This document shows, in pieces, positions 27,461-53,700 of a stretch of 64,000 bases of DNA. Positions within the stretch are counted from its first letter, which is position 1. Each line of letters opens with the position of its first letter. The stretch comes from Heliocidaris erythrogramma (Eukaryota; Echinodermata; Echinoidea; Camarodonta; Echinometridae), in the NCBI GenBank assembly GCA_025617745.1, contig CM046858.1, forward strand, positions 47,505,197-47,569,196. The letters are read 5' to 3'. The translations under genes were made by a program, and so were the position numbers. The notes under the pieces were generated by a model. That model saw nothing but the letters and a program-made list of their open reading frames with translations, was not told the origin of the DNA and made no database searches.

Positions 27461-27747
27461 TAACATTTAACAAATTCATAGTGACGAAGCTTTTCGACCT
27501 GCACTCATCGGGTCACAACGCAGGAATGAGAGAATACAAGAAAATACAAAAGTCAAGGAAGGGTGTGTATAGCGACCCGGGTAGGATCCGGGCACGCTAG
27601 AATAATCGAAGCGCTTGTACAAACTCCTTTTGTCGGCACAATAGCGGATCTCTCGACTGAATGAACAACGCTTCTAAGAAGCGAAGATGTTGAAAGCTGC
27701 GTGCTCGGCAACAATAGTGAACTGAGCCGGGTTATACGCCTTGGGCC
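27461..27747 (-). repeat. Inverted copy of the Penelope 3' end (left arm)
   Basis: Reverse complement of 28694-28980, including the ORF's last ~50 codons, its stop, and the hammerhead-like motif. One base is missing relative to the right arm (CTCGGCAAC versus CTCGGGCAAC). Confidence 0.88.
27481..27516 (-). ncRNA. Hammerhead-ribozyme-like motif (left arm), core variant
   Basis: Minus-strand copy of the motif at 28924-28959, same sequence and same U4-to-C core change. See that entry. Confidence 0.5.
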
Positions 27748-27762
27748 CCGTTATACGCCGTT

Positions 27763-28843
27763 GGGCCCCGTGCTTGCTAATATCTTTGTTGGCTTTCATG
27801 AAGCCCGCCTTCATGAAAACATCACTGATCCTAGCCTTACCCCGCTCACCTACTTTCGTTACGTTGATGATACCTTTGCTATGTTTGATTCAAGCGCTGC
27901 GTGCAAGGACTTTCTTACACAACTCAACTCGCTTCATCCGGCGCTTCGGTTTACATGTGAGATGGAGCAGTCTAACGCGCTTCCATTTTTGGATGTACTG
28001 GTTGAGAAGAGTGACGGCAAACTTCTCACGTCCGTATATCGTAAACCTACGTTTACGGGCCAGTACACGCGATGGGATTCGTACAGTGCTACATCGTATA
28101 AAACTGGTTTGATTAATAGCTTAGTGTGTCGCGCCTTGCAAATTTGTTCTCCGTGTAAGCTCAACCCTGAGCTTCTTCGCATCAAGCAAATCCTACGAGA
28201 CAATGGCTATCCGGAGCTTGTCATTGATCGCGTTGTGCAGCGTACTATTGATTCGCGGACTCGCCCTGTGTATGGGCCCAATAAATGCCCGGTCTACCTC
28301 AAATTACCTTGGCGAGGTAAAGTGTCTGATAAGTATGCGCGCGATATTAAGCATACAGTGTCGCGCTGTTACTTTGCCGTGGCTACGCGTGTCGTGTTCT
28401 CTACTAATAGAATGCTACCCGCAGTTCGCAAGGATGTACTGCCTTCCCCCCAAATGAGCAATGTCGTTTATCAGTATCATTGTCGGTGTGAAGCCGTCTA
28501 CGTTGGCCGTACATCTCAGCGTCTAGCGGACCGCATTAAACAGCACGTACCCTCCGTGGTACGACAGACATCAGCTGGTAGCCGAGCACAGCCGAAGCGT
28601 AACTGCAAAACCGCTGCTAGCGTCGCTAATGTTCAATGCCGAAGTCACAGCGACTCTGCTATTGGTCAGCACTTGCTAAATAGTCCGGCTTGTTCCAAGG
28701 CGTATAACCCGGCTCAGTTCACTATTGTTGCCCGAGCACGCAGCTTTCAACATCTTCGCTTCTTAGAAGCGTTGTTCATTCAGTCGAGAGATCTGCTATT
28801 GTGCCGACAAAAGGAGTTTGTACAAGCGCTTCAATTATTCTAG
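27763..28843 (+). CDS. Penelope-like element ORF: reverse transcriptase (partial) plus GIY-YIG endonuclease
   Basis: Encodes the C-terminal part of a Penelope-like polyprotein. The homologous region begins at LGPVLANIF (end of the RT 'SPLGP' block). The open frame runs upstream to 27701 only because it reads into the inverted arm. Counting from the ATG at 27701: catalytic YVDD at 54-57, the Penelope signature YRKPTFTGQYTRWDS at 113-127, and a GIY-YIG-type core VVYQYHCRCEAVYVGR at 255-270, followed by the His/Cys-containing C-terminus to residue 380. No internal stop after the truncation. Full family proteins are about twice as long, so RT motifs upstream of the SPLGP block are missing. Enzymatic activity from this copy is unlikely. 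Confidence 0.9.
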
Positions 28844-28923
28844 CGTGCCCGGATCCTACCCGGGTCGCTATACACACCCTTCCTTGACTTTTGTATTTTC
28901 TTGTATTCTCTCATTCCTGCGTT

Positions 28924-28959
28924 GTGACCCGATGAGTGCAGGTCGAAAAGCTTCGTCAC
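28924..28959 (+). ncRNA. Hammerhead-ribozyme-like motif in Penelope 3' end, core variant
   Basis: Stem I arms GTGAC and GTCAC pair perfectly. Between them are CCGATGA (core CUGAUGA with U4 changed to C), a weak stem II (GTGCAGGTC), GAAA, a tiny stem III (AAGCTT) and C at the cleavage position. Type I hammerheads with minimal stem III are known in Penelope-like elements. The core change and poor stem II suggest reduced or lost activity in this copy. Confidence 0.6.
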
Positions 28960-29700
28960 TATAAATTTGTTTAATGTTAACTATATAATGTATTATAACA
29001 CAGGTATAATTGGTACAACCTATGCACAGATAAGTTTAATGGTCTTTTCTTTATCCTTATTATTCCATCAATTTATAGACAATCACAAATGCAACTTTAA
29101 TGAGACAAGTTTTCAATCTTAATTCCCGTTTTAAATGTCCATCTTGATACAACATTATTCCAGTGAAATCAAATTAACCACATAACATTCCTTGACATGT
29201 TTTCATTTTCAAAAAGAAAAAAAAAGGCTTTCTTTGGTCAAAACATTAAATATAATCCTGAGTTTGGGGTGGTTTGAACTGCCTATGACACTGAAATAGT
29301 TTTTAAAACTAACATTTAAAAAAAACACCAAAAAAATTGTCACTTTCTGATTTAATTATGCAACCAATAAAATAAAACATCTCTTGGGGATCTTGGAGTT
29401 TAAAAAAAAAGAGACAATTTCCCCCAAATCACTGACTTTCTGATATAGGCAATTAGTCATAAAACCAAGAAGTTAAAAATCTCTAAACAATAAGTATCAA
29501 ACGTGAAAATTATTAAAAGTATCATCACACTACATGTTTGTAACAATTGCAATATCATTTCTTTGAAATATTCTGGAGCATTTGCTCAAGATGCTTTTTA
29601 TATTACAGGATGTATAGACCAAGATCATAGAATCCAATTAAAAACAACAATAAAATCAATTACTAAGACGTCTTCTGTTAGAAATGCCACATGATTCCTT

Positions 29701-32714: not shown

Positions 32715-35700
32715 CTATGAGGACAAATAGAGAGGGTATTTTAAGGTACAAATATAAAACCATGACATGAATAAATTGACAGAAATCACAAGCAAAGATA
32801 AAGAGAAGGATAATACAAATGATTAAAGAGCAGATGATAATTAGGAGAAAATAATGAGGAAGGTAAAAAAGGAATAGAAAGAAAAGAAGATAAAGATTAT
32901 TTCATATTGCACCATTTGCCAATCACCTAAAAAATAATTTGTTAACAGCTAGAGTGTATAAAATCAACCTCAAAACACTTTACCTGACATTCATTGGGTT
33001 AAAAATTACGGAGCAAGAAGAAAATAAAGGAAAACATGAAACCCCCTCCCGCGGAACCCAACTCCGAGTTCGGTTAGCGCGGGCATTTATTCTATGCGAG
33101 CACATACAGGTCCGTCGACTAGTCTCCTCACAAGTCGCTGTAATGTTTATTGGGAGAGTGTATTTCAACTAGCAATACCGTATTTTCCGGAATATAAACC
33201 GCGGGTTTTTCCTTCTGGAAAATCTCCCAAAAAGGAGGGGCGGTTAGTACACGGATATAAGGAAATTAATCATTACAAAACCCAACATTTTGACCAGATT
33301 TCTCAGTCTAACGATTGTCAATCATTTTTTAATGTCGTCTCTACTTGTCTTTGTCAAGATGATGAAATAAAACTCACTTTTTTGCATCATGTATCTCTCT
33401 TTGTCGTCGTTATTTTTCGCGTTATGCTTCAACAGAATCAGCGCGAGTAGCGGGCACACAGTCAGTGTCTCCGCCGCAGCAGCCGCATAGAAGAAGGCTG
33501 GGGTACCGGCCGGTAATCACAACATTTTGCGTGCAAAATTTACGCCCCCTGACCTTACAAAGCCGCTGTGATTTTGTCCCTTTCATTATTAAAACAGCGA
33601 GACAATACCCATGCCTATAGTTCTTAAAAAACAAGTATTGTTTGCTGACCCAGATTTGGTCCCACTGGTAACTTACGTAACTTCACAGCTTGAACAATAC
33701 TCAATAGGAAGCTTAGTAACTGAGCTGATGACCCAGACATTGAATAGGAGCCCTCTATTGTGCCCTAGCTTACAGCCAATTGAATAGAAAATCAATATTT
33801 AAAGCCTTGGAGGATATTTTTTAGGCTGTGTATTTATTGAGTCACTTCGTATCCGTGTATGAGCATTGTCTGATTTTTGTACTTTTGTTGGATGACAAGA
33901 TGTCTTTGATGATGCCGTTATGGCCAAGCTAGGATATAAAAAGTTATTTGACCCCCCCCCCCCCCCCCCTCCCTATGAACATATCGATGAATTTCAAGAA
34001 ATCACACATGAAACAGAATTCATTATTTATTTATTTATTTATTTATCTATTTCTGAATGGTTCATCAATTACATAGTACATTGAAATAACTCCTCTTTAT
34101 TTTGTTGTTACTCTTTTTCTCTGTCACTCTTTTTCTCTGTCTTTCTTCTCTTATTTGCCCCCTCCCTATGAACATATATCGATGAATTTCAAGAAATCAC
34201 ACATGTAACAGAAATTCATAATTCCTTTGATTCCTTTTTTTCTTCTTCACTCACATCTCTCGTTTTCACATTTAGAACCAAGTTAATAAATGGTAGTCCT
34301 CCCCTTTAAATATCAGGCTATAAGACCATAAATTTCCTCTGCATCCAATAATTTAACACAATTTATATTTAATATCAAGCTAACTCGCCCCTTTAAATTC
34401 CTCCTTAGAAGACCAGTGTTTGAAGATTTACGACACTCGTAAATTACACAATGGCCACTATAGTTGACCTCGAGAAAGAGAGGGAGAGAGCATGGGAGAG
34501 AGTGCCAGACTCATGACCAGAGTAAACAAACACGAGGTCACTGTAGGGCATGCAGGCCACGTGTGTTTATCTCATGCATGAACTGGGTCACAACATGACG
34601 CCTCCAGGGCCGGGGAGCATTTCACCATGTGTCTTGTCAGTGATTTTTACGGACAACTGTTATAAGCTACTGCAATCCTTGCATCTGATTGGCTGAGAAC
34701 AAATTTGTGGATAAAAATCACTGACAAAACACTTGATGAAACGCTCCCTTGGTCTATTGTTCCCCCTCTCTCTCTCTCTTCCCTCTCTCCCTTCTAAGAA
34801 TACGCGCGCGCGGTTGTAATTGGGTACGCTCGATAAAAGGAGGCCAGGGAGGGAAACAAAATTCCAACTTTTCTAGTGACCATTGATCGGGCCGTTGATT
34901 CTCTTAAAAGTACTGTAAATTCTGTGGCATTTATTGGATATAAATAAAGAATATTTTCGGCGTATTTTCTACAGAAAACTGTAAATTGACACAAACAGGT
35001 ACTTGGTCTGTTTTGTAATTTTTCAGACATTTTGTAGTTGACTGAGATACGAGTATGATCGTGTCATGAGTTCTGCTATTACATGTAGCTGGCTGTATGA
35101 CCAAGCCAGGAATACCTCCTTGGTATCAATGGTATGACACTATGTTTGTGTGTGTGTGCGACGTGATTAGGAAGAATGTGAGGATTGGTTTCTTTCCCTA
35201 AATTAAAAATTACAATTTATTTCTCTCGCTCCTTTTTCATGGAGCATTATCAAACAAAGCTGGCAAACTCTAGAAATCAGCGTGCAGTTGAAATCATTGT
35301 CTTAAATCTGCTTGTATTTTTTTCTTCTTTTTTTTCTCAATCAAGTGTCAAAAGTTGGGGGTGCGGTTTATAATCGGCCGCGGTTTATAATGCGGAAAAT
35401 ACGGTATCTCTTTATAGAATCAATATTTGAAGCTCATATTTTGAATATACAGCTTAAAATGCCCAACATACAGAACAAAATATTTGTTGTTGATTGGTAC
35501 ACTTTAAAAGCAATAATTATACACATAGTTGTTGAGATACAATAATGCTGAAGATGGAAAAAATAACAGAATAAGATATAGAAAAAGAAGAGAAAAAAGA
35601 AAATATCAATAATAATAAGAAGATGATGAAGAAAAAAAAAAAAACAGAAACAAAAAAACAAGAAAGGTAAGGTAAGGAAAAAAGAGGACATGGAGAAAAA

Positions 35701-38700
35701 GAAGAAGAACAGCAAGAAGAAGAAGAAAAAAAAGGAGAAGAAGAAGAAGAAGAAGAAGAAGAAGCAGAGGAAGCAGAGGAAGAGGAAGAGGAAGAGGAAG
35801 AAGAAAAAAGAAGAGGAAGAGGAAGAGGAGGAGGAGGAGGAGGAAGAAGGTTAAGATAAGAAGAAACAATAACTTCCAACTGTCATGCTTACCCTTGGTT
35901 CTGTTCAGCAATATAAGAGAAATTTGAATCCCATTTGGGTCTGCCATAATGGGTCTTCTGTCTCAATCCTGTCACTGCATCGATCTCTCTGTTTTCCTGC
36001 ATGTAAATATTCTTAGCCTGAAATCAAAATATAAGATAAAATTGATAAGAATTATATCATCACAGTCTTGTACCATAGGGAACCTTCGAGGAAAATTTTG
36101 TAAAAAACAATCTATGATAAAATGCATGCAGAATATGCTATTGCTGTGTTATTGAAAGACAGGTTGCAACAAAAGATTTGTTACATACGACGGGATATAA
36201 TGATATCATGATATTACTTCAAAAAATATATTAACAGCATATCATATGTACTACTAATCTACAATACTTTGAAAAGCATGACATAATCCTAGTACCAGTG
36301 AAATAAATAACATGGGAGTGGTGATGGAATTAGCTTTGGAAAGCTTCCAAATAGCTCTGGCCAAAAAAAAAAAAAAAAAATAAAAATCATGGTAAGAAAA
36401 TGTCAAATCCAAAAAGAGCTCTGCTGAAGAAATATCATACTGTTAAGCACTATGAAACTAATTTTTCCCCCTTCCCCTTCTTCTTGGGGAAGGGGGCTGA
36501 TTGATCCCTTCAATCAATTGTTCATACCTGTGTGTAGTCCCATCCTCTTGTCAGATAGATGGAGTAGCTGAGAAGATGTTCTCTACCGATCCGTCTCAGG
36601 GTGCCTTCCAGAGATGAGAGAAGATCAACAAACCATTCAAAGGCATGGGTGTCACGACAGATCCAGTAGAAATACATCTTCTTCACGTGCAGAGTGTCGT
36701 CCCCGGCTTGTAATCTGTAGCTGAGAGCAAATGGAAAGAGAAAAACCTTTACCATTTACAACGTTTGGCCGTTATGGAATGAATACATTGTAACCAAAGC
36801 AATTGTGTTTTACACATTTTACTTCACTTTGATTAATATATTTTCCTCAGGAATTTTTTTGTTCAATTTTGAAAATTGATGACATGAATATCATAGTATT
36901 ATGACATACATGTATGTACCAGCCAGTGTAAAGTTGAACTACCAGAATATGCAAATTTATCATATACATATTTTACTGCATTTGATCACAAAAAGGAATG
37001 TCATGTAGCCTTGATAACATAACAGTCCTGTTCAATTTCAGAGATTTTTATTTATCCGCATATAAATTTAGTCTATTTACATGTTACTTTCCATTTTGAT
37101 AAAAAAAAATTCAAGGGATTGGGGTGTATAGCTTTTATTCTTATTTTTCTTTTTGAGGTCTTCCATGCCTGGGGCCTGTAACATAAAGAGATACAATCAA
37201 TCTTACGATCAATTGTAACTCTTCAGTACATGGTTTGCCATAGACTTACAGTTAATATCAATCGTAAGACTGATCGTATCTCTTTATGTTACAGGCCCCT
37301 GGTATGATAAGCAATCATGTTACCGGTACATATTCACAAGAATTCTAGTATACAGTGAGAAGTGCATTACATACCATATGGACTTGAGTGTGGAGGCATA
37401 TGGGGTAACACCAATACCAGCGCCGACACACATCACCACATCATAGTCAAAGATGTCAGTACATGAAGTACCAAATGGTCCATCAACTTGAACTCTGTAG
37501 ATAAAAAAATTATCACTGTGATTTGTCAATTAAAATTAACACAGTGTATTGTTTATAATGCTGATTTTTTATTTGCCTATACTTGTCAGGATCCACTTCA
37601 TAAGATCTTATTTTAAAGTGGGGGAACATTTTTTTCTTTTGTAATTGGATAAATTGGTTCAGTTGGGGGATTTTCTTACATGGATTACACTTTTAGATGC
37701 TATATGCATTATTCAATAGCACTCCATTACCCCTTGTTAATTATCTTTCTCTCAATCTAAGTGCCATGTGTACAGATTTGAGTTTTCAAGCCATGACACA
37801 TGACACACCTCTCAGTTTTAAGCTTTTCCCCAACTAAGCATTTATACAGTCTGGCCTTTTACCACCTCTCTCCACCCATTGTTTCTTCACATTTCACACC
37901 CAAAGCCCTCTTCTTCCCCCCCCCCCCCCTTTCTCCTCTTCCCTCAATCTTTCCATTCAATACTAAACCTACTGCGGTCACATTTCTAAGCTTCCATTAA
38001 GTCTGTATCTATATGATATGAACACAACCACCAGTGTCTGACCTTGGTAGCTGTGTGATGGGTAGTGGTTCTGATTGGTCAGCTCCCATCTTGATGGCTA
38101 GTTCATCTGTCCAGTCTCCTACTCGCCTGATATGCAGGGAGAAATGCTCCTCCTCAGGGGCCTAACAAAAGAAAATTCAGAAAACGAGAACGTTATCAAG
38201 CAATTCAGCTGAATAACTAGTTAGAGTAGAAGTGTCATGGTAGTCCTAGCTAGCATTATCGTACTTTTGGTGACAATAAATAGTGTCTTGCAATGATAAA
38301 ATGATGCATACAGAAGTCAAAAGTTTATAACACTTCTAACCCTTCTTTGCTATACCAATAAAACATCTGGCTTCAATAGGAAAGCAGAAAGAGAAGGCCA
38401 CGGAGAGTGTTGGGGTTAGTGCTTATGAATAAAATTTTGGGTAAAAGGAACACTGAAAGATCTTGTAACTAATTAAGCCAGGGATCATGAAATGCAGGAA
38501 AGACGTTATCCCTGCATATCCCATCATGAATATCAGGGGAGCATTTAATCAAGCGTTTTGTCAGTGATTTTTACCGACAACTGTTATAAGCTACTGAAAT
38601 CCTTGCATCTGATTGGCTGAGAGCAAATTTGTCAGTAAAAATCACTGACAAAACACTTGATGAAAAGCTCCCCTGAATTGATGTTACTTTTTGCAGACTT

Positions 38701-41700
38701 TAGGAATCTGATATTCAGGATAATTTCTTTCTATCTGGGGAGCGTTTCATCAAGTGTTTTGTCAGTCATTTTTACTGACAACAGTTATAAGCTACTGAAA
38801 TCCTTGCATATGATTGGCTGAGAGCAAATCTGTCAGTAAAAATCACTGACAAAACGCTTGATGAAATGCTCCCCAGAGCTTACCGATGTCAATGTGAAGG
38901 GATGCCACTGGACCTTAGAGATTGGTGAGCATTTGAGGAAGATATATTGGCCTGGTAGCATCTTAAATCCTTGTTTCTTCATCTTTATCTCTATCACCTT
39001 AGACTGGTGCTGGATAACCTATATCATATGTGATACATATCAATTCTTCTTAACTCTTTTAGTGCTGATGGCATGTATATGTGACAGATAGACTTGTCAT
39101 TTTCATTCACCAATTGCTCGACCACAGGAAAGGTATATGGTGGTCAATGTATATCAAAAATTTTAGCATAAATCAAGCATTCTAAATATATGATTATAAT
39201 TATATGCCACCATATTTCTTAAAAGATATTTCCTTATTTCAACATTAAAAAATAATAAATGAGAAACCAAAAAATAATGGACAAAAAAGAAACTCAAAAG
39301 TAATTTTCAATGATTCTTATGCATAAAGTTGGGTAAAGTAATGTTTGGTATCATAAGAATGGTATTAAATTTCCTATAAGTTATGTACACAATATTTTGT
39401 GAAATAATAGTTAATGAAGTGGAGACATTTGAAAAGTAAGCATTGGTCACATTTTGGTAAAATTTTGAATAGAGCTAAAACCCTTGGCACAGTAAGAGTT
39501 AACACATGCCACGGTAAGCCACCAAGTAAAACCGTCACTGAAAAAAAAAATTGGACATGAAAATGAATGGGAAGTGGGGTTTCAAACAATGGTCACCACA
39601 TGCAATAATGGCCCCTGCATTGACCCTGTGATTGGTGGGTCTTGAAGATAAAGCTGAGTTCTGGTCATGAGATTGAATCGTGAAAGAAACTGTTTATAAA
39701 AGCAATTGGGAAAGGTTGATTACATAGCGCATAAGAATTGGTGTATGCTGTAAGGTTTTGGAATCCTGCTGAGAGTTACACACATAAATGTGTATATGGG
39801 ACTACACAAAAAATGCTCGGCCCGGACATTTCAGCCGTTTCTTATCATATTTTGAATGTGAGAGCGTTTGAAGAGCAATCCTTTGCAGGGGCCATTTCTA
39901 CTACTCGGCCAGGACATTGCAGCCGTTTCTTATTATATTTTGAATGTGAGAGCGTTTGAAGAGCAATCCTTTGCAGGGGCCATTTCTACTACAATAATCT
40001 TCCAAACTAACATAACGGGAATGAGAAAGCTCACAAATTATTTTGTACCTTTCCCAGAACTCAACTTCCTCTTTATCATAGAGATTTGTGATGCACATCA
40101 TGCTTATGCGATTCCATTGTGCTGCAGCATTTTTTTTTAGGCACTACCTCTCCCTTTTTTCCTTTTTTTTTTTGTGTGTCTTCTTTTCATCACAACATGT
40201 GACCCCCCCTCCCTATTCTGTCGGTAAGCCACTGCCATCACATCTGAAATAAAAATGACAAGTTACGTACCTGAACTATAGTGACATCTGGCCATGTTCT
40301 AGCCATCCGGAGGATCCTCTCTAGGAAGTACACACACAGAGGAGCAACACACCACTTCCAACTCTGCAAAGAAAAGAACATTACATACCCATAAATTGGT
40401 ATTTTGCTTGCATTTTGGTACTGGCACTGACAAGGAATAGTAGATGGGGCTGTGGGTTAAAAGAAGATTAAAAATCAATTACAGAGAGTATTCCCCCCCC
40501 CCCCCGGAAAAAAACCCAGAGAGTTCTCAGCAGTCCATAAATCACTGATGCTAATACAGTGAAACCTGCATATGCAGACCCTCAAATGAGACAAGAAAAG
40601 CAGTCTTTATGAGTAGGTGGTCTGTAAAGTACAGGTTTTTCTAACGCACGTTTCAATGAGAAACATTTTTCAAGGGAAACGAAAACTGTGGTCTTTACAG
40701 ACAGGTGGTCTTTCTATACAGGTGGTTGCTAAAGGTTTGACTGTACATGCATGGGGGGGCTTCAGGAAAAAAAAAAACACAAGAGGAAATTCTCTGTGGT
40801 AAGTGTACCAGCAAAGGGTAATGAATACCTATGTGGAATTGTGGATGCATTCTTTAAACTCACAAAATTGCTTTGATCCTCCCAAACCACCCCTGGGGAA
40901 GCTATAAGATATTTCACTCAATTTGGATCAACGAGAACACTGGTAAATATATGGCAAATGGGAAGCATTTACTCATTTATTCTTATGTGCTATATAATGA
41001 ACCTTTCCCAATTGCTTTGAGACAGTTTCTTTCACAACTCAATCTTGTGACCAGAACTCAACTTTATCTTTAAATAGAGCATTTTTTTCAAAGACATATC
41101 CTTGGAGAAGTATTTACTTACAGCTCCAGGTGTAGAAGCAAACTCTGGTGGTTGAACAATCACACACTGATCAAATGTTTCTGCATCTACACTGCATTCT
41201 ACAGGATCATGTTCATCAATGTTGGTTTGGTACTTCACCACTCCCCTATCAAATACAAACACCATTTTAAACAAGAGGTGTTAAATCACTTTAAAAAAGC
41301 ACAACCACAAGTTAAAAATGAGGCGACATAGTGCGCTTCACATTGCTGTGTTTTATAATACAGGGGAGCGTTTCCTCAAGCGTTTTGTCAGTGATTTTTA
41401 CTGACAAATTTGCTCTCAGCCAATCAGTTGCAAGGATTTCAGTAGCTTATACCAGTCGTCGGTAAAAAACACTGACAAAACGCTTGATGAAACGCTCCCC
41501 TAGTCACCGAGTATACATAGTGGGCCTTATTGCATGCTGCAAAGTTGTTGTTTCTTTACCTCGTTAAATTATTGCTTCTTGCCATTAATTTTTACGTAAA
41601 GTTTTGAACGGTGATCTTTTTTGAGGTAGTACATCGCATCGTGTCTGAACTAGGCTTTGCAAATTGGCAAGATACAAATCACCAAAATGTAAAAAATAAA

Positions 41701-44700
41701 TAAGAATTTCCTCCAATAGCAACTGAAATAGCACTACTTCTGAGTAAACTTTTGACATAAAAATTTCAACAGTACCTACACCCCCCTCCCACCATCCTGA
41801 ACATATTTGGAAGGTTGACGGACGGGAACCTTAAACTGAGCCTTTTACCTTGTACATATATGTAAATCATCTACCAACTGGTCAATTATTATCCTATTAT
41901 AAATTATTGACAAATGATTTGAGGATAATAAAGTGCCATTAATAGAAATTGATATAGATACTAGTCTATGAATAGGACAGTCCATTAAAAGTTCGGAATA
42001 TCAAGTTAGCAAAGTTAGCAAAACAGATAAAATTATATCAGTAAGTAAAACTTACCCCATGCCATGTGCCAATAGCATTGCATAATAGATCACAAAGAGG
42101 TGATGGGTCAACCAGAAAGTCTCAAAGTAATATCTCCTGCAAGCCAATCAATAAAAGAAAAAAAACATTGTCATTGGGGGGCTACATCACCATGTTTTCA
42201 CCTGTCGGACAACAGTGAAGAGGCACCTTAACAAGCACATATTTTGCATAACAATTTTTGAATTAGGGAAGCAGAATCAAGGGGCAAAAGTGAGCAGATT
42301 TACGCTCTCAAAACAATTCCATTTAGCAAATGGCCTACAAATTTCTTTTCGTCATGTTGCTAAACTTTTTCCAAGACAATGCATGACAAGGGCTCTAACA
42401 GACTGGTTACAATTCCAGGAGATAGTCTGGTTTGCAGCAGTGGTGTAGATATGCATACACCATCCATGGAATTGAAGGTGGATGACGAATAGATCATTCC
42501 CCACCTAACAAAAGATAATTATGTATGTCTATGCAATTAATATACTGGACAAAGGTAGCAGAGGTGAACAATCGTTTGGAGTCCCTCCCAGTAATCACAC
42601 TACATGGATCCATATATTTCAAACAAAAGAAGTTGACAGAGATTAATAAAGTATACAAGACATAAAACATAACTAAATTCCACCTCTATCTTGCACAGGC
42701 AGCAACTAACCCATGGATTTGATTTATATCAACAGAGTGTGGCACATGATTTCATTGAGTCATGATGACTTAAAGTGACAGTAAATTGAAGCTCCTCATG
42801 GCGCCATCTTTCAACTGTGCCTCTCATTTACCCATCATGCCCCATTCTAGTTTGTAGATGCGTAGAATATATCTGTACGCAATTTTCCACATGTGCAACG
42901 TCGAAAATAATAGTTTGAAACATAAAATGTACCTATTTACCAAACAGCTGTTTGTCGAAATTCAAAATAAAATGCAATTAATTTTCAAATTATAATCTCA
43001 ATTTAGCAGTTACTGTAAGGTGGCGCTGTTCAAGTTTTGCCAGTTTAATGCCATTTTAATACCTAATGAATTCTGTAGCAGAGGAGAACATGAGAATATA
43101 AGATACAGACAGTACTGCTCCAGTCCAACCTGCAAGTAGAGATAGGCCTGGTCCTATTACTCCTAGTCCACTTACATCACTCTGTCCAATCAAAACAAAA
43201 TCAGATGCATTTCTAAATTTTGACAATTCAGACGTGAAGTGGGTCAAACATTAACAGGTCCAGAGGCACTAATGGAACACAACCAAATGTTTGAAGTTTT
43301 TTTAAATTGTACATTATTTGACCCTTTTTCTTATATATAAGAGTGGAGCTGTGTATTCTGTGTCAGCTTTTTCTCAATTTTATACACATCCTCTCTTCCC
43401 TTCATTCATATGAAAATTCACACTCACAAAACGCAATGTACTTACTATCAAGATCCCAATTTGTGTAATGATCCCTCAACTCACTTTAACCTTTTTTGAA
43501 GCACATTCCTGCAATTTTGGATGTCTTGTTGCCACTTTGTATAATAAGTTATGTTACTGATTCTCTCATTGTCATTAATGATACAGCTTTCGATACTATG
43601 GATTTGGAACATGATAAAATACTGTGTTATTATCCACACAACGCATGATAATATACGACGAATGTCTCCCACTACAGAAAGAAATTGGAAATAAAAGATA
43701 CCCTACTCAACGACTGCATACCGAACGAATGGACTTGAAGGGATTCAGATCAAAAGCAGGTTGACTCAATCTATTAGCCAGCCAGTCATCTTCACTCGTT
43801 GCCTTCCTTGCATTGTAAAGATTCTGTAAGTTGAAGCAGTGAGCCACCACATGGATAATGATGAAGAATCCAATGGCGTAGGCCAAAAGCTTGTGGAAGG
43901 TGATATTCTTGTCCAGCTGACGTCGTAGATTGCGTCTGTAAAACTGAGCATGAGAAAGTAAGGTAAAATTACAGTCTATGTCTTGGTCTTTTTATGCTGG
44001 AATCTAGAGCATTAAAAAACAACATCATGCCAGGCAACCTACACAACAATATCATCATCAATTATGTAAATACTTCCATGAATAAATAATAGTTAGGTAA
44101 GTGGTTATGTTGTAATCTAGATAAGACTACAGCACAGCACCATGGTACCTAATGCTTAAATGTCTAAGATTTATTTTTGATTATCAGAATACCTTCATGA
44201 ATGAATAATTGTAAGTATGTCTGTGGTTGTGTAGCTGAATTGAGAAATGTGTTTCCTTATCCTTATCAAGAATGCTCGGTAGAAAGAATTTCCTTGAATG
44301 TTTGAGGACATTCTCAGGGTAGCTCAGCTAGGCCTAGGTAGAATCCTGTGCTTTGTATCGTGAATTGAGAAAAAGCACTCTATCCATTCAACCATTATTC
44401 TTATTATTGATATCATACGACAAAATTGTCAGGCAGCCAATCAAAACCCGTTTTATATTTCGCGCGCTTTGTCCCTTTAGTTTCCGGTTATATGTTTTTG
44501 ATTTCAGCTTTCTGTTCATTCTTGCGGTATACTCTGATGAGTGCAAGACGAAAAGCTTCAGTATGTCTCTCTTCAACGCCATTATTCAAATTTTTAGAAG
44601 TTTTCTTTTCCAGATCATGAATATATATTCATTGCTCACATGTTTTTACACAAAACCTAAATGAAACAAATCTATTCCTTTATCAGAAACTAAGAAAATG

Positions 44701-47700
44701 ATAATTTATGAAATTTCTTGTAAGTGAGCAAATGGGAGAGGAGCTCCCAAGATACATGTACATCACGGAGTTGCCAATTTACTTTTTATTGATTACAACT
44801 TACGAACACCTTTATGAAACACCCCCCTGGACTTTGTTTCATAAAGCTGTTCTTTACGAACGACTGGAACATGTTCTTGGGTGCTATACTAATCAGATTC
44901 TCAACCATTTAGCACAAGAACTGATCACCGGTCGTGCATAAAGTCGTGCGTAACTTACGAACAGCTTTATGAAACACCCCCGGTCTTGCTAGAAAGGAAC
45001 GTACCTTCTTGGATTCACATGATCCTCTGAGATAAGAAATCATATTCCTGCAAACTGGGAAGAGAATCAGCATGCTATTGAAGTTGAGACATGCAGCACT
45101 TGCTCTGGCAACAGGCAGACCATTCTGTATACAAAAATGTAGACAAAGGTCAAAACATCTGTTGAGAGCCAGAAGGGCTGACGAATATGCGTTAACACCC
45201 TTCTGGCTCTAAACAAATTACATATTCACAAACACTGATTTAACAATGAACAAAAATTATCCTTTGTTATCGTTGTTATTCATTGGGCAATATCATGATT
45301 TTCCTTGAAAAAGAGAAAGGGAAGAAAGAAAATCAAACTACCGGTAAAGGTAAATTTTTACAGTCCTGAAGTTTCTTCTCCCCTTATATTATGACTACTC
45401 AGAATATCCAGCAGTGCTAGTGTACCAGGTTATAAGTTTTTGTTTATACTGCTACCAGTAATAAACAAATAAGAATTTGAAGATGATAAAAAAGGAGATA
45501 AATGGTATAATCAAAAGAAATAGAGGGGGAAGCTCTGTCTGTAGGTAACATATACTTACTTTCATCAGATACTTGGTGTACATATAAGGTATGTTATCCA
45601 TGTACTTGAAGAATGTCACCAGCCATATGATCAGGTTCACGATAGCCCATGCTGCCTACATGTACATGAAATAGAGAAAAGATAGAGAAAAGATGGAGAA
45701 AAGATGGAGAAAAGATAGAGAATAAACAGTGTAAGCCTTATCTCCATACAGACTGAACAACTTCAGGACAACAGACCTGAGAGCAAATTTGGAAAGTCCC
45801 TGAATCAAGTCATTCAGGAACTGTAAGAAAGTTTGACCCTCCTTTTATATTGATGTTCTTTTTCTATCTTTTTTTTCCTTTTCTTACTACATGTAGGGAA
45901 TCAGTGATTGTTAGTAACCATAAGACCATAATTCCACATGGGCATACATGTAAATGTGAGTAACTCGAAACTAATTCTACACCCTCTATATTAATAATAA
46001 TATAATGATATTGAATATATAGGAGCGCAAAAAAACTGAAAGTATCATGGCACTTACAAGAGTAAATTATAATTAAATCAAATTAAAGGGAAAGTCCAGC
46101 CTTAAAAATAAGTTGGTTTCATTAAAAGCAGAAAACGCAGAAAAACTTATCAAAGTTACTCTGAGGAAAATCTGGAAAACGAATAAGAGAGTTATTATTT
46201 TAATCAATCAATCATTTTAGTTATTAAATTATTTTCAGGAAATTCAGGGTGGACTTCCCCTTTAACATGTCTTAAGTAGAATTTATGTACTTACACAAAC
46301 TCCACTCTCGAATTATTTCATCAGGTAATGAAATGCAGTTCTTAAACACAGTACACAGTCATAAGAACACAGTTAACTCTCACACTAATATTGCACAACA
46401 GGAAGGACAGGTAGACTAGTTTTTAAAAATCAATTTGATAATTGAAATGTCAAAGTTAAGCACGCATTAGAAACAATGTGAAATGTTAAAGTCTACATGT
46501 ACCTATCTACATTTATCTCCTTCCATGCCACTAGATTTTTGAGCAAACATCAATAATGAACTTTCAAGAGTTAAATATTAACTTTCAATTAGGTTTTTTT
46601 CTTGAGCAAACTGGGCAAAACTAAATTACATAGGAATGAATATTATATTAAAGGCACAGGTTGCTGAGCCTCAACGAACTGGTCAACACTCAAATTTTTT
46701 GGCAGGATTTGCTGCCCATGGCATGGTAGGGGTTAAGCTTATTATCATCATCGTCATCCATCATCATCAATATTAATCATCAAAATCGTCACCATCATCA
46801 TCTGTGACCCGTCACGTCAAAATGAGACAGAAGTATTTTTTTCAAATTTGATTTCATTATTAATTATTATTTTTCATTTCATAAGCTTTAATTTGATATA
46901 AACTTATACTCTAGAGAATGTGTATTAGGGGAGATAATAGATTTTGAAACTCAAGAATAGTGGGGCTCTGGAAAAGTATTTGTTCGAGAAAGACGCTTTT
47001 GAAGTTTGACTTTCGTTTTGTCTTCATGCACCATTTTTTCATCTTTAATGCCTAGATTTTTTCAAAGTCTGTAGTAACCTTTTATCAATTTGAATGTAGT
47101 TCTTACGTATCTTTTTTCATGAAAACATGAGTTTTAATTTCTAATGGGTAGGCAAGCAAGTAGTTTCAAGGCACGGAAATGACCCGGGCACGCTAGAATA
47201 ATCGAAGCGCTTGTACAAACTCCTTTTGTCGGCACAATAGCGGATCTCTCGACTGAATGAACAACGCTTCTAAGAAGCGAAGATGTTGAAAGCTGCGTGC
47301 TCGGGCAACAATAGTGAACTGAGCCAGGTTATACGCCTTGGAACAAGCCAGACTATTTAGCAAGTGCTGACCAATATTGACCACTACGAATACAATATAC
47401 AAAAATAGTTGGTATTTTCTGTCACGTGTAGTAAAGGTATGGGGAGAGAAATAAGATAAATATTTTAAATACTTGCTTTCAAATTCAGCCCTTAAAGATC
47501 TCACTCCTACCTCAAATGGCCGTTAGGAGGAACTTTTGATATTTTCAGCAAAATCCAAAGTCAAAATCTTGTCCAAAACCGGAGAAATCCCCGCCGATTT
47601 GTTTCGCGATCTTCTTCTTCTTCTTCCAGTCTGGTACAGACCGCCGCTGGCATATTATCGTACCTTGTGCTTGTCGAGTGCCGAGCGTACAGTGCAATTT

Positions 47701-50700
47701 AAAATTGCTCTACAAAAAGTACAATCAAACTATGTGCAGCTAAAAAACAGTCCTGAAGCTCAACGGAGCTTCACATGTTGCACCTTCTGCTTGAAGAGCT
47801 CCAAGGAGGTGCAGTTGACGACAGCAGGTGGCAGGGAATTCCACAGTCTGATAGCGTCTGGGTAGAACGTTGTTTGGTACAGGTGAGTTCTAGCAAAGGG
47901 AACCCTGAACTTATGTGGGTTCCCGCGGGTCTGTGGGCCAGCAACTGGGATGAAGTTGGTGACAGGGAGATCAACCAAACCATGAAGAATGCTGTAGACC
48001 ATGTACACTTTCTGTTGCGCCCCGATAGTCACCCAGGACAGAGCGGGCATATCGACATTGAACCATTTCCATCTTTCTAATGTTCTCTTGGGTAGATGGG
48101 TCCCATACCGTTGCAGAATACTCCATCACAGGGCGTACCAAGGTCTTGTAGAGTAATGCCTTTGTCTTCGGAGGGCAGGCTCTCACGTTTCTCTGCAGGA
48201 AGCCTCGAACTGAGTTGGCTTTCTTGGTTGTCACATGTACATGGTGATTCCATTTCAGGTTACTCTGTATGTTGACACCCAAGTATTTTACAGAATCTGT
48301 TTCTTGTAGCTGCTCTCCGTGGATGAAGTAAGGAAAGGATGTCTGAGACATTTTCCTTTTGTTAGAGACATGCATGATGTGGCATTTCTGCGGGTGGAAG
48401 TGCATCAGCCAGTCTTTTTCCCATTCCTGGAGGTTGTCTAGGTCTTTTTGAAGGCTCTGGGCATCTTCCTCACTCTTCACCGTCCTGTACAGGATGCAGT
48501 CGTCTGCGAACAATCTTGCCGTGGACTTGGGTGATATGCAGTCAGGAAGATCGTTGATGAAGAGAAGGAAGAGAAGAGGTCCGACGACGCTGCCTTGCGG
48601 AATGCCCGAGAGGACAGGAGAGGTGTGAGAAGTGCAACCATTGAGTAGAACCCTTTGAGAGCGACCAGTGAGGAAATCCTTAATCCAGTTATGGGCTTTA
48701 CCACGGACTCCATAGTAGTGGATTTTATGCAAGAGTCTTCCATGCGGGACCTTATCAAAAGCCTTTGATAGGTCTAACAGAATAACATCAATCTGGTCCT
48801 TTGAGTCGACACTGCTAGTGAGATCTTGGATGGTGAGAAGGAGTTGAGATGTGCAGGATCTTCTCTTGCGGAAACCATGCTGAGCATCTGACAGAATGTG
48901 GTGATCATCAAGATGCTCATGGATGCTTGTGCAGACAATATGCTCCAGAGTCTTGCAGACGATTGATGTCAGCGACACAGGCCTGTAGTTGACCGCCTTG
49001 CATCTCTCACCCTTCTTGAAGATAGGGACAACATCTGCATTCTTCCAGTCCATGGGAACCACGCCCTGATGTAGTGAGGCCTGGAAGAGCATAGTCAACA
49101 CTGGTGTTATCTCCAATGACAGCGCCTTGAGAAGTTGTGCAGGAAGTCTGTCTGGTCCGGTAGCCTTGTGGATCTCAAGAGCAGACAGTAGCTTGTGTAC
49201 CCCAGCTGGGGAGATCACGATGTCATCCATACCAGGAAATGGACTGGGTCGCTTATCCTTCAATGTTGACATGTCTTCATCCCTGTTGAATACTGATGTA
49301 AACTGCTGATTCAGGATATCGGCCTTCTCTTTGCTGTCTGAGTGTGTCTTCCCATTGATGTCTTTCAGTGGAGATACTCCAGTGTTATCATTCCTCTTAC
49401 TGTTGATAAAGCTCCAGAATCGTTTTGGGTTTGTAGTGGAGTCAGGGCTGATGATATTGCTGATGTACTCATTGTACGCCTGCTTGCAGGTTGCCTGTGA
49501 TGACCTCTGAAGCTGATGGTATTTGCTGAAATCCTGAGGTCTGCCAGATGCTCCAGCGCGATTGAAGGCCCGCTTTTTCCTTCTCGAGAGCCGTTTCACA
49601 GACCTTGTGATCGCGTGTTGTTTACATACTGCCGATGTCTTAGACTAAAATCGGCCAATAAAATTTTTGTCCACGAAAAACTCGGGATCGCAAGCGCACA
49701 TCGATCTTTACGATTGCGCCATATAGGGACCAAATTTTTAAGGACAAAACTCTTTTGGGGAGATGTCAGCGCCCGCGGCGACAAGGAAATGTACACAATG
49801 ACTCCGATAGCTCGTTTCGCGAGAATCAACAGTAAATTACGGATTTCATTTTTGGAAATATATTTTCCAACATCGGTGAGTTGAATTTATTGTATTTCTT
49901 GAATATTTTGGGGTCGGTTTTTGTAAATTAAATGCCGATTTTGAGTGAATGTTGGTGTCTTTTGTGCAGTGGTGTTTTAAAAAGTTGAGGTGTATGACTG
50001 CCTACATTATACACACGAAGTATAGGAATGTAGCTATGAGTATGAGTGAATATGACCACTAATCTATTCGTTATGATTCGTGGTGTGCCAATCATCATCA
50101 ATCATCACCATGATCACCATCACATCAGCAAGCAATGGTCATATTGACCATTAGAATCATATACATGTGTGTATACTGGGTATTGGGGATACAGATGTAA
50201 TTTTGTTTGAAATTGATGTTTTTGTGGGCAAACTGATACTTAAGTATCATTCTTTAGATTTTAAGTTATCAGTTCGTTAAGATACAAAATGTAGAAAGTT
50301 ATAAAAACTTACATTTACAGCCCTCTTTTTGGTACTTGTTACCCACATCTCCATACGGATCACGACTGCTCTCAATAATGTTGCGCACTAGTGAGGCCGC
50401 TCTACATGGTTACGCACCGTAGATACGTACGCAGAATGTTACGCACACAAGCTATTCTACGAAGACCTGGAAGGGCCAAACTGACAACGTAAAAAATAAA
50501 AAATATTACGTACGTACGTAGTAATTATTACGTACGTACGTAATATTTTTTATTTTTTTACGTCGTCAGTTTGGCCCTTTCAGGTCTTCGTAGGAGATCG
50601 ACGAACCCATCGCGCCGGTACTACTACGAGCGCTGAGGGCTCCCTTCATCATAATCGTGAAAAATACAAACTGGATGCTGACGGGACAGTCTCGATAGCA

Positions 50701-53700
50701 GTTATCGACAAAAAGGACCCAAAATTTCAGGAAACCCTCTTCAAAGGTCACAAAACAACCTGGTAAGTTTTAATCATCTATTATTCAATATAATTCTTTG
50801 GATGTAAGTAAACTGCAATATATGATATTCAATTAAATATAGCCAAAAATGCACAGTGATGCAGTTTAGGTATGGGATGTGTGTTGGCTGCACTCATAGC
50901 TACATTCCTATACTTCGTGTGTATAATGTAGGCAGTCATACACCTCATCTTTTTAAAACACCACTGCACAAAAGTCACCAATATTCACTCAAAATCGGCA
51001 TTTAATTTTCAAAAACCGACCCCAAAATATCCAAGAAATACAATAAATTCAACTCACCAATGTTGGAAAAGATATTTCCAAAAATGAAATCCGTAATTTA
51101 CTGTTGATTCTCGCGAAACGAGCTATCGGAGTCATTGTGTACATTTCCTGGTCGCCGCGGGCGCTGACATCTCCCCAAAAGAGTTTTGTCCTCAAAAATT
51201 CGGTCCCTATGGGGTACACGGAAAAGTTTCGATTTTCTGTGTGCGCGATCGTAAAGATCGATGTGCCCTTGCGATCCCGAGTTTCTTCGTGGACAAAAAA
51301 TATATTGGCCGATTTTAGTCTAAGACATCGGCAGTTTGTAAACAACACGCGATCGCGAAACAAATCGGCGGGGATTTCTCCGGTTTTGGACAAGATTTTG
51401 ACTTTGGATTTTGCTGTAAATATCAAAAGTTCTTCCTAACGGCCATTTGAGGTAGGAGTGAGATTTTTAAGGGCTGAATTTGAAAGCAAGTATTTAAAAT
51501 ATTTATCTTATTTTCCCCCCCCATACCTTTAGTACATGCGACAGAAAATACCAACTATTTTACAGTAATGTACCCGTGAGTGGTTGGCTGCGTTACTACA
51601 CAGTCGGCAATGGCGTGTACCTAGGTATGTGCAAATGCAACGGTACCGCGAGCGCCGAGTACGGCGAGAAGGCTTGTTCACATTCTGTTCGCAAGTGACA
51701 TCGCCTCTGCATACATCCCAATTGAAAATCAGCTCTCTCGAGCGAGCGCAAATCGGCGCAACTTTCTCGAGGCCGTATTTGAGTAGCCCAGATTCTGCAC
51801 TTTCGATACATGTAAGTTTCAATGTGGACATCCACCATCCAGAAATTGATATCATCGCTTGAAATTTTAGAAAAGTTTTGGCCGTTTTCATCATCAAATT
51901 TCATCAGTAAAATGAGTAAAATATTTATTAAAACAGTGAACATAACTTTTGTTAATTATCAAAGTATAAAATGATTCATTTTTACTAGATTCTAGACATG
52001 CGCCAGCTTTCAAATAGGTCACGCAGGAAACTCTTGCACAGCGGGTCTGTCAGAAGCCAGGCCGCCGGTAACTCAAAGGAGCTCCAACGCGCAGCGTTGG
52101 AGCTCCAGGTACAACTATCCAAAGTCGACCTAGCCCATTTTATGGCTAATTGCATCGCTTAATTTCGGCAGGTAAGATAGAAATTTGTACTTACACTTTA
52201 AGAGAATTACTGTAACTATGTAGCAGGCTCTTTGATTTTACGATTTAACGATTGTTTCGATGAAAAAAATGGAATTTCCTCGCCGAGCTGATCTTTTCCC
52301 CGTACTGTACCGTCGATTCAAATGACTCCATCGCACTGTGTGTAATGTACCGTATATACGTCGCTGACTCGATCACACAGTGAGATCGAGTCATTTGAAT
52401 CGACCGTACAGTACAGGGAAAAGATCGGCTCTACGAGGAAATTCCATTTTTTCATCGAAACAATCGTTAAATCGTAAAATGAAGGAGCCTGCTACATAGT
52501 TACAGTAATTTTCTTGAAGTGTAAGTACAAATTTCTATCTTACCTGCCGAAATTAAGCGATGCAATTAGCCATAAAATGGGCGAGGTCGACTTTGGATAG
52601 TTGTACCTGGAGTTAGGCCGCCGGGTGCGCCGGGCCAAGAGCTGGCGCTCGGTCGATGATACCCCGCCAGTGGTCTGGCTTCTGACAGACCGCTGGACGT
52701 GGTGGGCGCGGCAGAGATGGCGCATCTGACACTGGTCAAATGTTTTTGTCGTGAATTATGATTTATGAATCAAACATATCCGCATTTCTATGAATTTGAC
52801 TGTCATTATACTTTCTTTTCAAATATGATTATGTAATTCTTGGGGGAAAAAAATTTTCAACTTTCTCTTCAATCTGAATTCAATTGATTAAAAATCAAAT
52901 TGATGAATATTTTTATTAATTATTCTAATTTAAAATTAAATTTTTTTAAAAATTATTTTCAGCTTTTATTTTGTGTTTGTTAAATCATTATAAATTAAAA
53001 GGCACCCTGAATCAAACTCTATTTTAATGTGTTTTTTTATACATAATATTCTTCGTTTTCTACAAATACAATTGTAACAAATATTTTCCATATTTTGCAT
53101 AACATAAGTTAATTAGCATAAATCAATATACTTACTGACTATTACTGTTAAGAAAGTAACTAATTAGTAGCTGCTCCAGGCTCAATTTCAGCTTTCCATT
53201 GATACCTAGATCACTTCAAAAGTCTCAGAAATAGAGAAGTTATGCGTGTGTTTATAGTGTGACATGAAATTCCCTCCATATTGGTCACACATTTTTTCAT
53301 GCCCTCCATTGGTTTTACATTAAGACAGTGGCCGGAAATATGGTTGAAATGACAGGACTTAAATTATCATAACTTTTTAGTTACTTGACCAATTTGAAAG
53401 TTGTTAGTGTCATTGGAAAGGTCTCTTAAAGAGCTTTCCTATGATACTATTTGTATCAAGATGTATGCAGTTTAATTTTTTTTGTCACATAGCTACTACG
53501 AGTCACTCCCGGGTACATTTCTGTAAAATAGTTGGTATTTTCTGTCGCATGTACTAAAGGTATGGGGGGGGAAAATAAGATAAATATTTTAAATACTTGC
53601 TTTCAAATTCAGCCCTTAAAAATCTCACTCCTACCTCAAATGGCCGTTAGGAAGAACTTTTGATATTTACAGCAAAATCCAAAGTCAAAATCTTGTCCAA

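Follow-up and report, generated by a model that had tools for sequence, protein, structure and literature searches.

Within the 64,000-nucleotide (nt) stretch of Heliocidaris erythrogramma DNA analyzed here, referred to as the window, the + strand at positions 44526-44567 carries a full hammerhead ribozyme motif, whose cut site is predicted from the window sequence to follow C44559 (Table 1). The motif is located in an intron of a NOX gene, and the match of a flanking exon on the - strand to gp91phox upholds the antisense placement proposed in a first-pass annotation of this DNA; the NOX pre-mRNA consequently holds only the complement of the ribozyme. The motif had been described there as a minimal type I hammerhead of the Penelope kind with a complete core, a view which is borne out by the presence of all core bases, an 8-bp stem I, and homologues in related families. 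We consider it very probable that the locus represents a dead-on-arrival, 5'-truncated insertion of approximately 155 bp from a second Penelope family, designated PLE-2, which lies antisense in the NOX intron and retains the complete hammerhead of its family, a putative ribozyme of the dimer/pseudoknot type.

Hammerhead motif and its covariation in three Penelope families

In the hammerhead position numbering, U4 is a member of the conserved core, and the window copy possesses every core position (C3 U4 G5 A6 N7 G8 A9, G12 A13 A14, A15.1-U16.1, and H17, here C). Its 8-bp stem I includes two G-U wobbles, stem II is reduced to approximately 1 bp, the single invariant G-C pair, and is hence uninformative on covariation, and the palindromic AAGCTT stretch at the position of stem III can form at most 1 to 2 bp within one molecule.

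Homologous motifs were found in three Penelope families, for which the names PLE-1, PLE-2, and PLE-3 are labels coined in the present analysis and which represent the families reached rather than a genome-wide enumeration. The first-pass annotation had named beforehand the preservation of stem I pairing in homologous copies as a condition of its interpretation, and such preservation is observed: stem I differs in sequence between PLE-2 (GGUAUACU/AGUAUGUC), PLE-1 (GUUGUGAC/GUCACUAU, with one mismatch), and PLE-3 (GUGAUAAC/GUUAUCAU), and its pairing is kept in all three. In an alignment of 14 rows, which we chose among 55 matches from the three families, 93.3% of cells are paired overall and 93.8% in stem I, where 6 of the 8 pairs show changes on both sides. 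Cells changed on both sides number 37, against 15.3 in shuffles, and the covariation score amounts to 0.455, whereas shuffles give 0.221 and slid partners no more than 0.128.

A second helix, overlooked in the first-pass annotation, connects loop II with the stretch directly 5' of stem I, the two being complementary over 5 to 6 bp in all three families (UCUUGC/GCAAGA in PLE-2, CCUGC/GCAGG in PLE-1, and ACCUGC/GCAGGU in PLE-3), with energies of -5.5 to -6.0 kcal/mol. This pairing likewise covaries between families, and because the 5' strands lie upstream of the reading frame, protein constraint does not explain the matching changes. Since the Rfam models proved silent, homology and covariation decide the identity of the hammerhead instead, and on these grounds the motif is confirmed as real and correctly placed.

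A number of results nevertheless weigh against a functional hammerhead. The covariation comprises few independent changes and only three families; the number of pairs with changes on both sides, which is 8, was equalled or exceeded by 287 of 500 shuffles, and the number of further pair types, which is 13, by 497 of 500. Within the loop II helix, two of the six pairs never vary and the outer pair of PLE-1 is a U-U mismatch. Stem I alone is weak (-1.9 to -3.0 kcal/mol), the lone strand shows no folding advantage over shuffles (z 0.61), and the unpseudoknotted energy minimum retains the loop II helix and hides the core. The covariance-model match that the first-pass annotation had set as a check failed to materialize, as an Rfam search of the whole window returned no match at gathering score, and searches of the own genome with RF03152 (58 candidates scored) and RF02277 Hammerhead_HH10 (43 candidates scored) returned none, the controls being silent too. 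HH9 (RF02275) and HH10 are names in use for minimal Penelope-type hammerheads. Copies of PLE-1 and PLE-3 also run past the cut site (see below), so that their templates were not left in a cut state there, having been either uncut or cut and rejoined. Finally, CCGAUGA occupies the core in 39 of the 39 PLE-1 hammerheads found, including those of the element at 27.4-29.0 kb of the window, for which the first-pass annotation had missed this core.

The state of core position 4 differs between the families. Among the 33 PLE-2 copies, the window copy included, CTGATGA was found in 24, CCGATGA in 6, and other forms in 3, position 4 being T in 26 and C in 7. The possibility that CTG is a decay product of CCG through methyl-C deamination is disfavored, given that the mirror product, CCA, occurs in 0 of 33 copies of this sample, which is biased towards the window copy. 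CTG therefore looks, from the sequences, like a genuine state in PLE-2. In PLE-3, CUGAUGA was found in 8 of 8 hammerheads. Ribozyme mutants of an Anolis Penelope element are reported to insert in vitro still, and the ribozyme to need protein to cut (PMC11167929; this and the other papers are cited from excerpts), so that there is no contradiction in a family being successful with a weakened core; the retention of the canonical core by PLE-3, whose frames are intact, points in the opposite direction. The fixed U4-to-C change of PLE-1 beside the canonical core of PLE-3 would provide a natural test of whether mobility needs cutting.

The hairpin of the energy minimum, which forms through UCUUGC/GCAAGA and encloses the core, is either a competing inactive fold or the basis of another explanation, namely, that the stretch is conserved as a control hairpin or as a site of protein binding around the start codon, its hammerhead likeness being a by-product without cutting. 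This explanation, which we regard as unlikely, would agree with the CCGAUGA core of PLE-1 and with the in vitro insertion of the Anolis mutants (PMC11167929). Set against it is the retention, in the main PLE-2 and PLE-3 forms, of hammerhead positions including GAA, A15.1-U16.1, and C17, together with the covariation of stem I, which a hairpin does not need, and the reported cutting of the Anolis ribozyme once protein is added (PMC11167929).

The surrounding repeat and the Penelope reading frame

The own genome (1.06 Gb, 26 contigs) was searched using window positions 44300-44800 as the query, which resulted in 53 matches: the window itself, 40 others spanning at least 44429-44579 at 87-94% identity, 10 partial matches, and 2 elsewhere in the query. 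As 40 of 3324 first-look candidates were scored, copy numbers represent lower bounds, and the bias of the PLE-2 sample has the same origin. Twenty-seven other loci were fetched (7 + 20), of which 26 contain the repeat, L019 having been fetched for its match to another stretch of the query. The main matches in these 26 loci begin at 44422-44429, and a near-intact motif is fitted by at least one copy in 20 of them. Penelope coding sequence was detected by tblastn in 7 of the 26, and in 5 (L003, L004, L008, L009, and L014) it is positioned directly upstream in the same sense; in L009, the end of the open reading frame (ORF; EFVRTLVLF followed by a stop, by eye) is succeeded by an untranslated stretch and then by the hammerhead. 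PLE-2 copies thus run on into the C-terminal part of a Penelope-type ORF, no complete PLE-2 ORF being among the fetched loci. Because the longer copies continue into Penelope coding sequence, the repeat is assigned to the end of a second Penelope family and the window copy is a 5'-truncated insertion, which follows the family sequence for 24 nt beyond C44559; no convincing target-site duplication was seen around it by eye.

The likeness of the flanks to the Penelope element at 27.4-29.0 kb noted in the first-pass annotation is confirmed (68% identity over 85 nt and 80% over 44 nt), as is its statement that no Penelope coding sequence adjoins the motif, since the nearest convincing piece in the window lies at 47196-47375. 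Its suggestion of an independent hammerhead-bearing retroelement was not supported. Such a nonautonomous element of the metazoan retrozyme type, rather than a piece of Penelope, appears improbable to us, even if 19 of the 26 fetched loci lack a Penelope coding match inside 1.5- to 2.5-kb flanks and tandem or inverted repeat pairs are present at nine loci (L004, L008, L009, L011, L012, L016, L018, L026, and L027). The continuity of longer copies into Penelope coding sequence is the principal argument to the contrary; moreover, the 3' ends fall into two main classes just inside the Penelope frame start, which is how Penelope tails are described (PMC11167929), and no long tandem array was seen among the fetched loci. 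Metazoan retrozymes share with the present repeat a type I hammerhead and the character of a small dispersed repeat, but are described as noncoding tandem repeats of 150-450 bp (PMC7229834), whereas the repeat considered here is the end of a coding element and not a noncoding tandem repeat with a canonical type I hammerhead.

The cut site lies next to the start codon of the Penelope ORF, a further feature missed in the first-pass annotation. In L072, a tandem PLE-3 locus, the hammerhead is followed by an ATG at +7 after the cut and by 177 codons that remain open up to the edge of the fetched piece (MSLFRAILKFCSTKKLF...), and this is the only locus seen with hammerhead, ATG, and long frame in succession. 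The corresponding ATG is situated at +7 in PLE-1 (MNLLNVIFKFCST) and at +4 in PLE-2 (MSLFNAIFRFCST in L010), both by eye. In 38 of 39 PLE-1 motifs, the frame opened by the AUG within the core reaches a stop after 10 codons, and in L072 after 17. Among 32 PLE-2 copies, the window copy included, 17 have 22-33 nt of family sequence past the cut, 2 have 40 nt, and 13 have 48-54 nt, 54 nt being the end of the PLE-2 reference stretch over which these copies had been picked by similarity. PLE-1 and PLE-3 copies were picked by protein match; in 38 of 39 PLE-1 motifs, the 17-20 nt that follow agree with a sister copy apart from no more than two mismatches, the 39th (L066) has an altered start with unchanged subsequent sequence, and 8 PLE-3 motifs extend at least approximately 9 nt past the cut, by eye. 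Two internal start sites of reverse transcription are described for Anolis (PMC11167929), with which the two end classes and the optional tail would fit by analogy.

A protein search of the genome with the PLE-1 frame, in which 105 of 7871 candidates were scored, yielded 107 matches. Many of these show 96-99% identity and belong to PLE-1, some lie at 85-93%, and PLE-3 forms a group at 69-70%. The PLE-1 coding remnant of the window was not called as GIY-YIG by Pfam in its 392-amino-acid (aa) frame. With core positions 3 and 4 left free in the motif, 39 PLE-1 hammerheads were found in 27 of 30 loci, the window copy counted; of the three loci without one, CCUAUGA stands in L060, L045 is disrupted, and L065 yielded none. 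Four further ends from the 85-93% group, L079-L082, show the PLE-1 form. PLE-3 open frames reach 802 aa, and a partial one displays the canonical Penelope order of reverse transcriptase (RT; 1e-8) followed by GIY-YIG (4.9e-4; 20.8 bits, just under the curated 22.6). As the 32 PLE-3 matches listed have no internal stop and spread over only 566-572 bits, the family looks at least as recent as PLE-1, judging by sequence. Eight of nine fetched PLE-3 3' ends carry the hammerhead, and the ninth (L076) has a deletion.

A pseudo-long terminal repeat (pseudo-LTR) arrangement is apparent in the tandem L072, in L044, with two hammerheads 2.58 kb apart, and in the inverted ends of the PLE-1 element of the window. 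All four long-frame PLE-3 copies examined (L084-L087) contain inverted C-terminal coding sequence on the 5' side, its junction with the 5'-truncated ORF being visible in L084, L085, and L087, and a sense hammerhead directly before the ORF was found in none of the four. A short PLE-1 piece at 47181-47376 matches stretches of 27585-27744 and 28660-28855, and strict and relaxed scans detected no hammerhead in it. When viral contigs were scanned, patterns holding 23 and 18 fixed bases found no match, and no Penelope relative was found by protein; a pattern with 17 fixed bases gave 11 matches, which is about chance level by rough estimate.

Table 1. Positions of the hammerhead, Penelope, and NOX features in the window
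Feature	Positions	Strand	Details
5' strand of proposed pseudoknot helix	44520-44525	+	UCUUGC; 6 bp with 44543-44548 in window copy
Stem I, 5' strand	44526-44533	+	DNA GGTATACT, RNA GGUAUACU
Hammerhead core C3-A9	44534-44540	+	CTGATGA / CUGAUGA
Stem II (G44541-C44549) and loop II	44541-44549	+	GTGCAAGAC
3' strand of proposed pseudoknot, part of loop II	44543-44548	+	GCAAGA
Core GAA (G12 A13 A14)	44550-44552	+	
Stem III stretch	44553-44558	+	AAGCTT / AAGCUU, palindrome; 6 bp possible with stretch of second copy
C17	44559	+	Predicted cut between 44559 and 44560
Stem I, 3' strand	44560-44567	+	DNA AGTATGTC, RNA AGUAUGUC
PLE-2 frame start	44563-44583	+	MSLFNAI, ATG at +4 after cut site; ended by insertion edge
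PLE-2 end, 5'-truncated	44429-44583 (edges approximately +/- 7 nt)	+	3' part of pseudo-LTR, hammerhead, and first ~7 ORF codons
NOX2-like exon flanking intron	45013-45133	-	Matches gp91phox (NOX2), chain 8kei_B residues 43-78, E 6.6e-11
Open frame, probable next NOX exon, other flank of intron	43707-43991	-	Read by eye
PLE-1 element with inverted terminal copies	27455-28985		Copies ~285-291 bp, 98%
PLE-1 hammerhead, left inverted end	27474-27531	-	Core CCGAUGA
PLE-1 hammerhead, right end	28909-28966	+	Core CCGAUGA, ~85 nt beyond ORF stop
PLE-1 coding remnant	27665-28843	+	392 aa open (RT end to C terminus); Pfam RVT_1 at E 0.016 only

Chance expectation and the NOX intron

The bare core words (CTGANGA...GAAA) occur in the window at chance level, with 8 found against 5.4 expected and 18 of 100 shuffles reaching 8. 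A set of 150 Markov sequences, each 128 kb long, yielded 8 matches in total (0.05 per window over both strands) to a fuller descriptor, which adds A15.1-U16.1, H17, and stem I pairing over 5 bp or more to the core words; a stem I of 8 bp or longer was present in one of these matches, and none was also as compact as the window site. A scan of the 64-kb window with the strict descriptor returned 44526-44567 as the sole site, and permitting C at position 4 added both ends of the PLE-1 element. With E values up to 10, the only hammerhead model reported by Rfam for 44350-44750 was RAGATH-1, at 15.2 bits (E 6.6; cut-off 56.3), which is not significant. The frequency of the bare core, the silence of Rfam, and a fold no better than shuffles would be consistent with a chance resemblance inside a repeat, an explanation which is rejected as very improbable in view of the compensatory changes among the homologous motifs of three families.

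That the motif is a domesticated intronic hammerhead acting on the NOX transcript has next to no likelihood, for although it lies in a NOX intron with its core intact and intronic hammerheads of host genes are known (RECK and CTCL, according to a figure legend in PMC6155905), it is antisense to NOX and is one of many dispersed copies of 87-94% identity. Beside the NOX exon, a 30-base word (approximately TTACGAACAGCTTTATGAAACACCCCC) is repeated and partly inverted at 44797-44981, perhaps as a small inverted-repeat element.

Proposed mode of action and relation to known hammerheads

In the explanation preferred here, an element transcript would fold into stem I and the 1-bp stem II, with loop II paired to the stretch immediately 5' of stem I in a pseudoknot helix that may serve as a tertiary contact. 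Stem III would be assembled from two copies via AAGCUU, these being either the two pseudo-LTRs of one transcript or two separate transcripts. Cutting after C17 would then take place 3-6 nt ahead of the ORF start codon, and tandem transcripts would thereby be resolved into unit-length RNAs whose 5'-OH end adjoins the AUG. A bolder reading, which is possible if distinctly uncertain, is that Penelope elements of this animal employ a distinct hammerhead form, in which a 5- to 6-bp pseudoknot takes the place of a stem II reduced to 1 bp, stem III exists between two copies only, and cutting occurs 3-6 nt upstream of the RT start codon. If this is true, the products of tandem transcripts would be leaderless 5'-OH mRNAs or, after ligation, unit-length RNA circles, and reverse transcription through the joined ribozyme would explain the intact hammerhead and short tail of the copies.

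AAGCUU is the main form of stem III in all three families, and as a self-duplex between two molecules it provides 6 bp at -4.3 kcal/mol. From the type I order, we infer that the structure would be a double hammerhead in which stem I, too, forms between copies, and the families should therefore not help each other. The stem I duplex has energies of -3.3 and -6.0 kcal/mol within families versus -0.7 and -0.5 kcal/mol across families; a heterodimer of the window copy and PLE-1 was accordingly discarded, as cross-family stem I hardly pairs. Dimer cutting by Penelope hammerheads is reported or suggested in published summaries (PMC6466107, PMC7761336). As for the window copy, it is probably a silent, inactive relic, because no partner copy adjoins it, antisense transcription would be needed, and its stem I is unfit for the PLE-1 copies of the window.

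Minimal type I hammerheads of Penelope-like elements have reportedly been described by Cervera and de la Pena in 2014 and by Lunse, Weinberg, and Breaker in 2017. The window locus is a relic with a hammerhead of this known Penelope kind, with which it shares the type I order, the very short stem III, and the location in a pseudo-LTR, and for which dimer activity is reported or suggested in the excerpts cited. Penelope-type motifs are said there to lack helix III and/or the characteristic tertiary interactions (PMC7761336, PMC6155905), whereas in the families described here stem II measures 1 bp and the 5' flank of stem I is the partner of loop II. Other hammerheads are known to have helical contacts between stems I and II (PMC10085705, PMC6155905); in contrast to those with Watson-Crick-paired stem I and II loops (type II and others), the partner here is the single strand 5' of an open stem I in a Penelope type I form. 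A hammerhead that overlaps the ORF start and a short optional tail inside the ORF also characterize the Penelope/Poseidon element PAc of Anolis, but its authors place the start codon at stem II and the cut 26 bp inside the ORF (PMC11167929), while the frame here starts at +4 or +7 after the cut. RAGATH-1 (RF03152) has a 1-bp stem II and a 7-nt loop in its consensus line, as found here, and differs in that the model possesses a 9-bp stem III, the low score of the window copy having been given above.

No description of a loop II/5'-flank helix in Penelope elements was found in the literature as excerpted, the 2014 and 2017 primary reports being outside its scope, and this helix with a 1-bp stem II, the placement of the cut by the start codon, and a family with fixed U4C may be new. 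In an excerpted review, the activity and role of Penelope hammerheads are called a mystery, tertiary contacts being lacking (PMC7761336). The presence in one genome of three families with a covarying loop II contact, a cut site by the start codon, and a fixed core change in one of them renders cutting, the need for two copies, and relevance to mobility directly testable.

Other repeats are present elsewhere in the window. A frame of 557 codons for a LINE-type reverse transcriptase occupies 47974-49644 on the - strand (RVT_1, 9.2e-38). An inverted pair of approximately 695 bp at 98% identity is located at 50890-51582 and 53504-54199, with related pieces at 47402-47611 and 49609-50049. A partly self-complementary repeat of approximately 140 bp occurs in five copies within 40 kb (3260-3400, 34612-34748, 38536-38673, 38735-38876, and 41360-41504), the identity of which is about 75-93% in the listed alignments.

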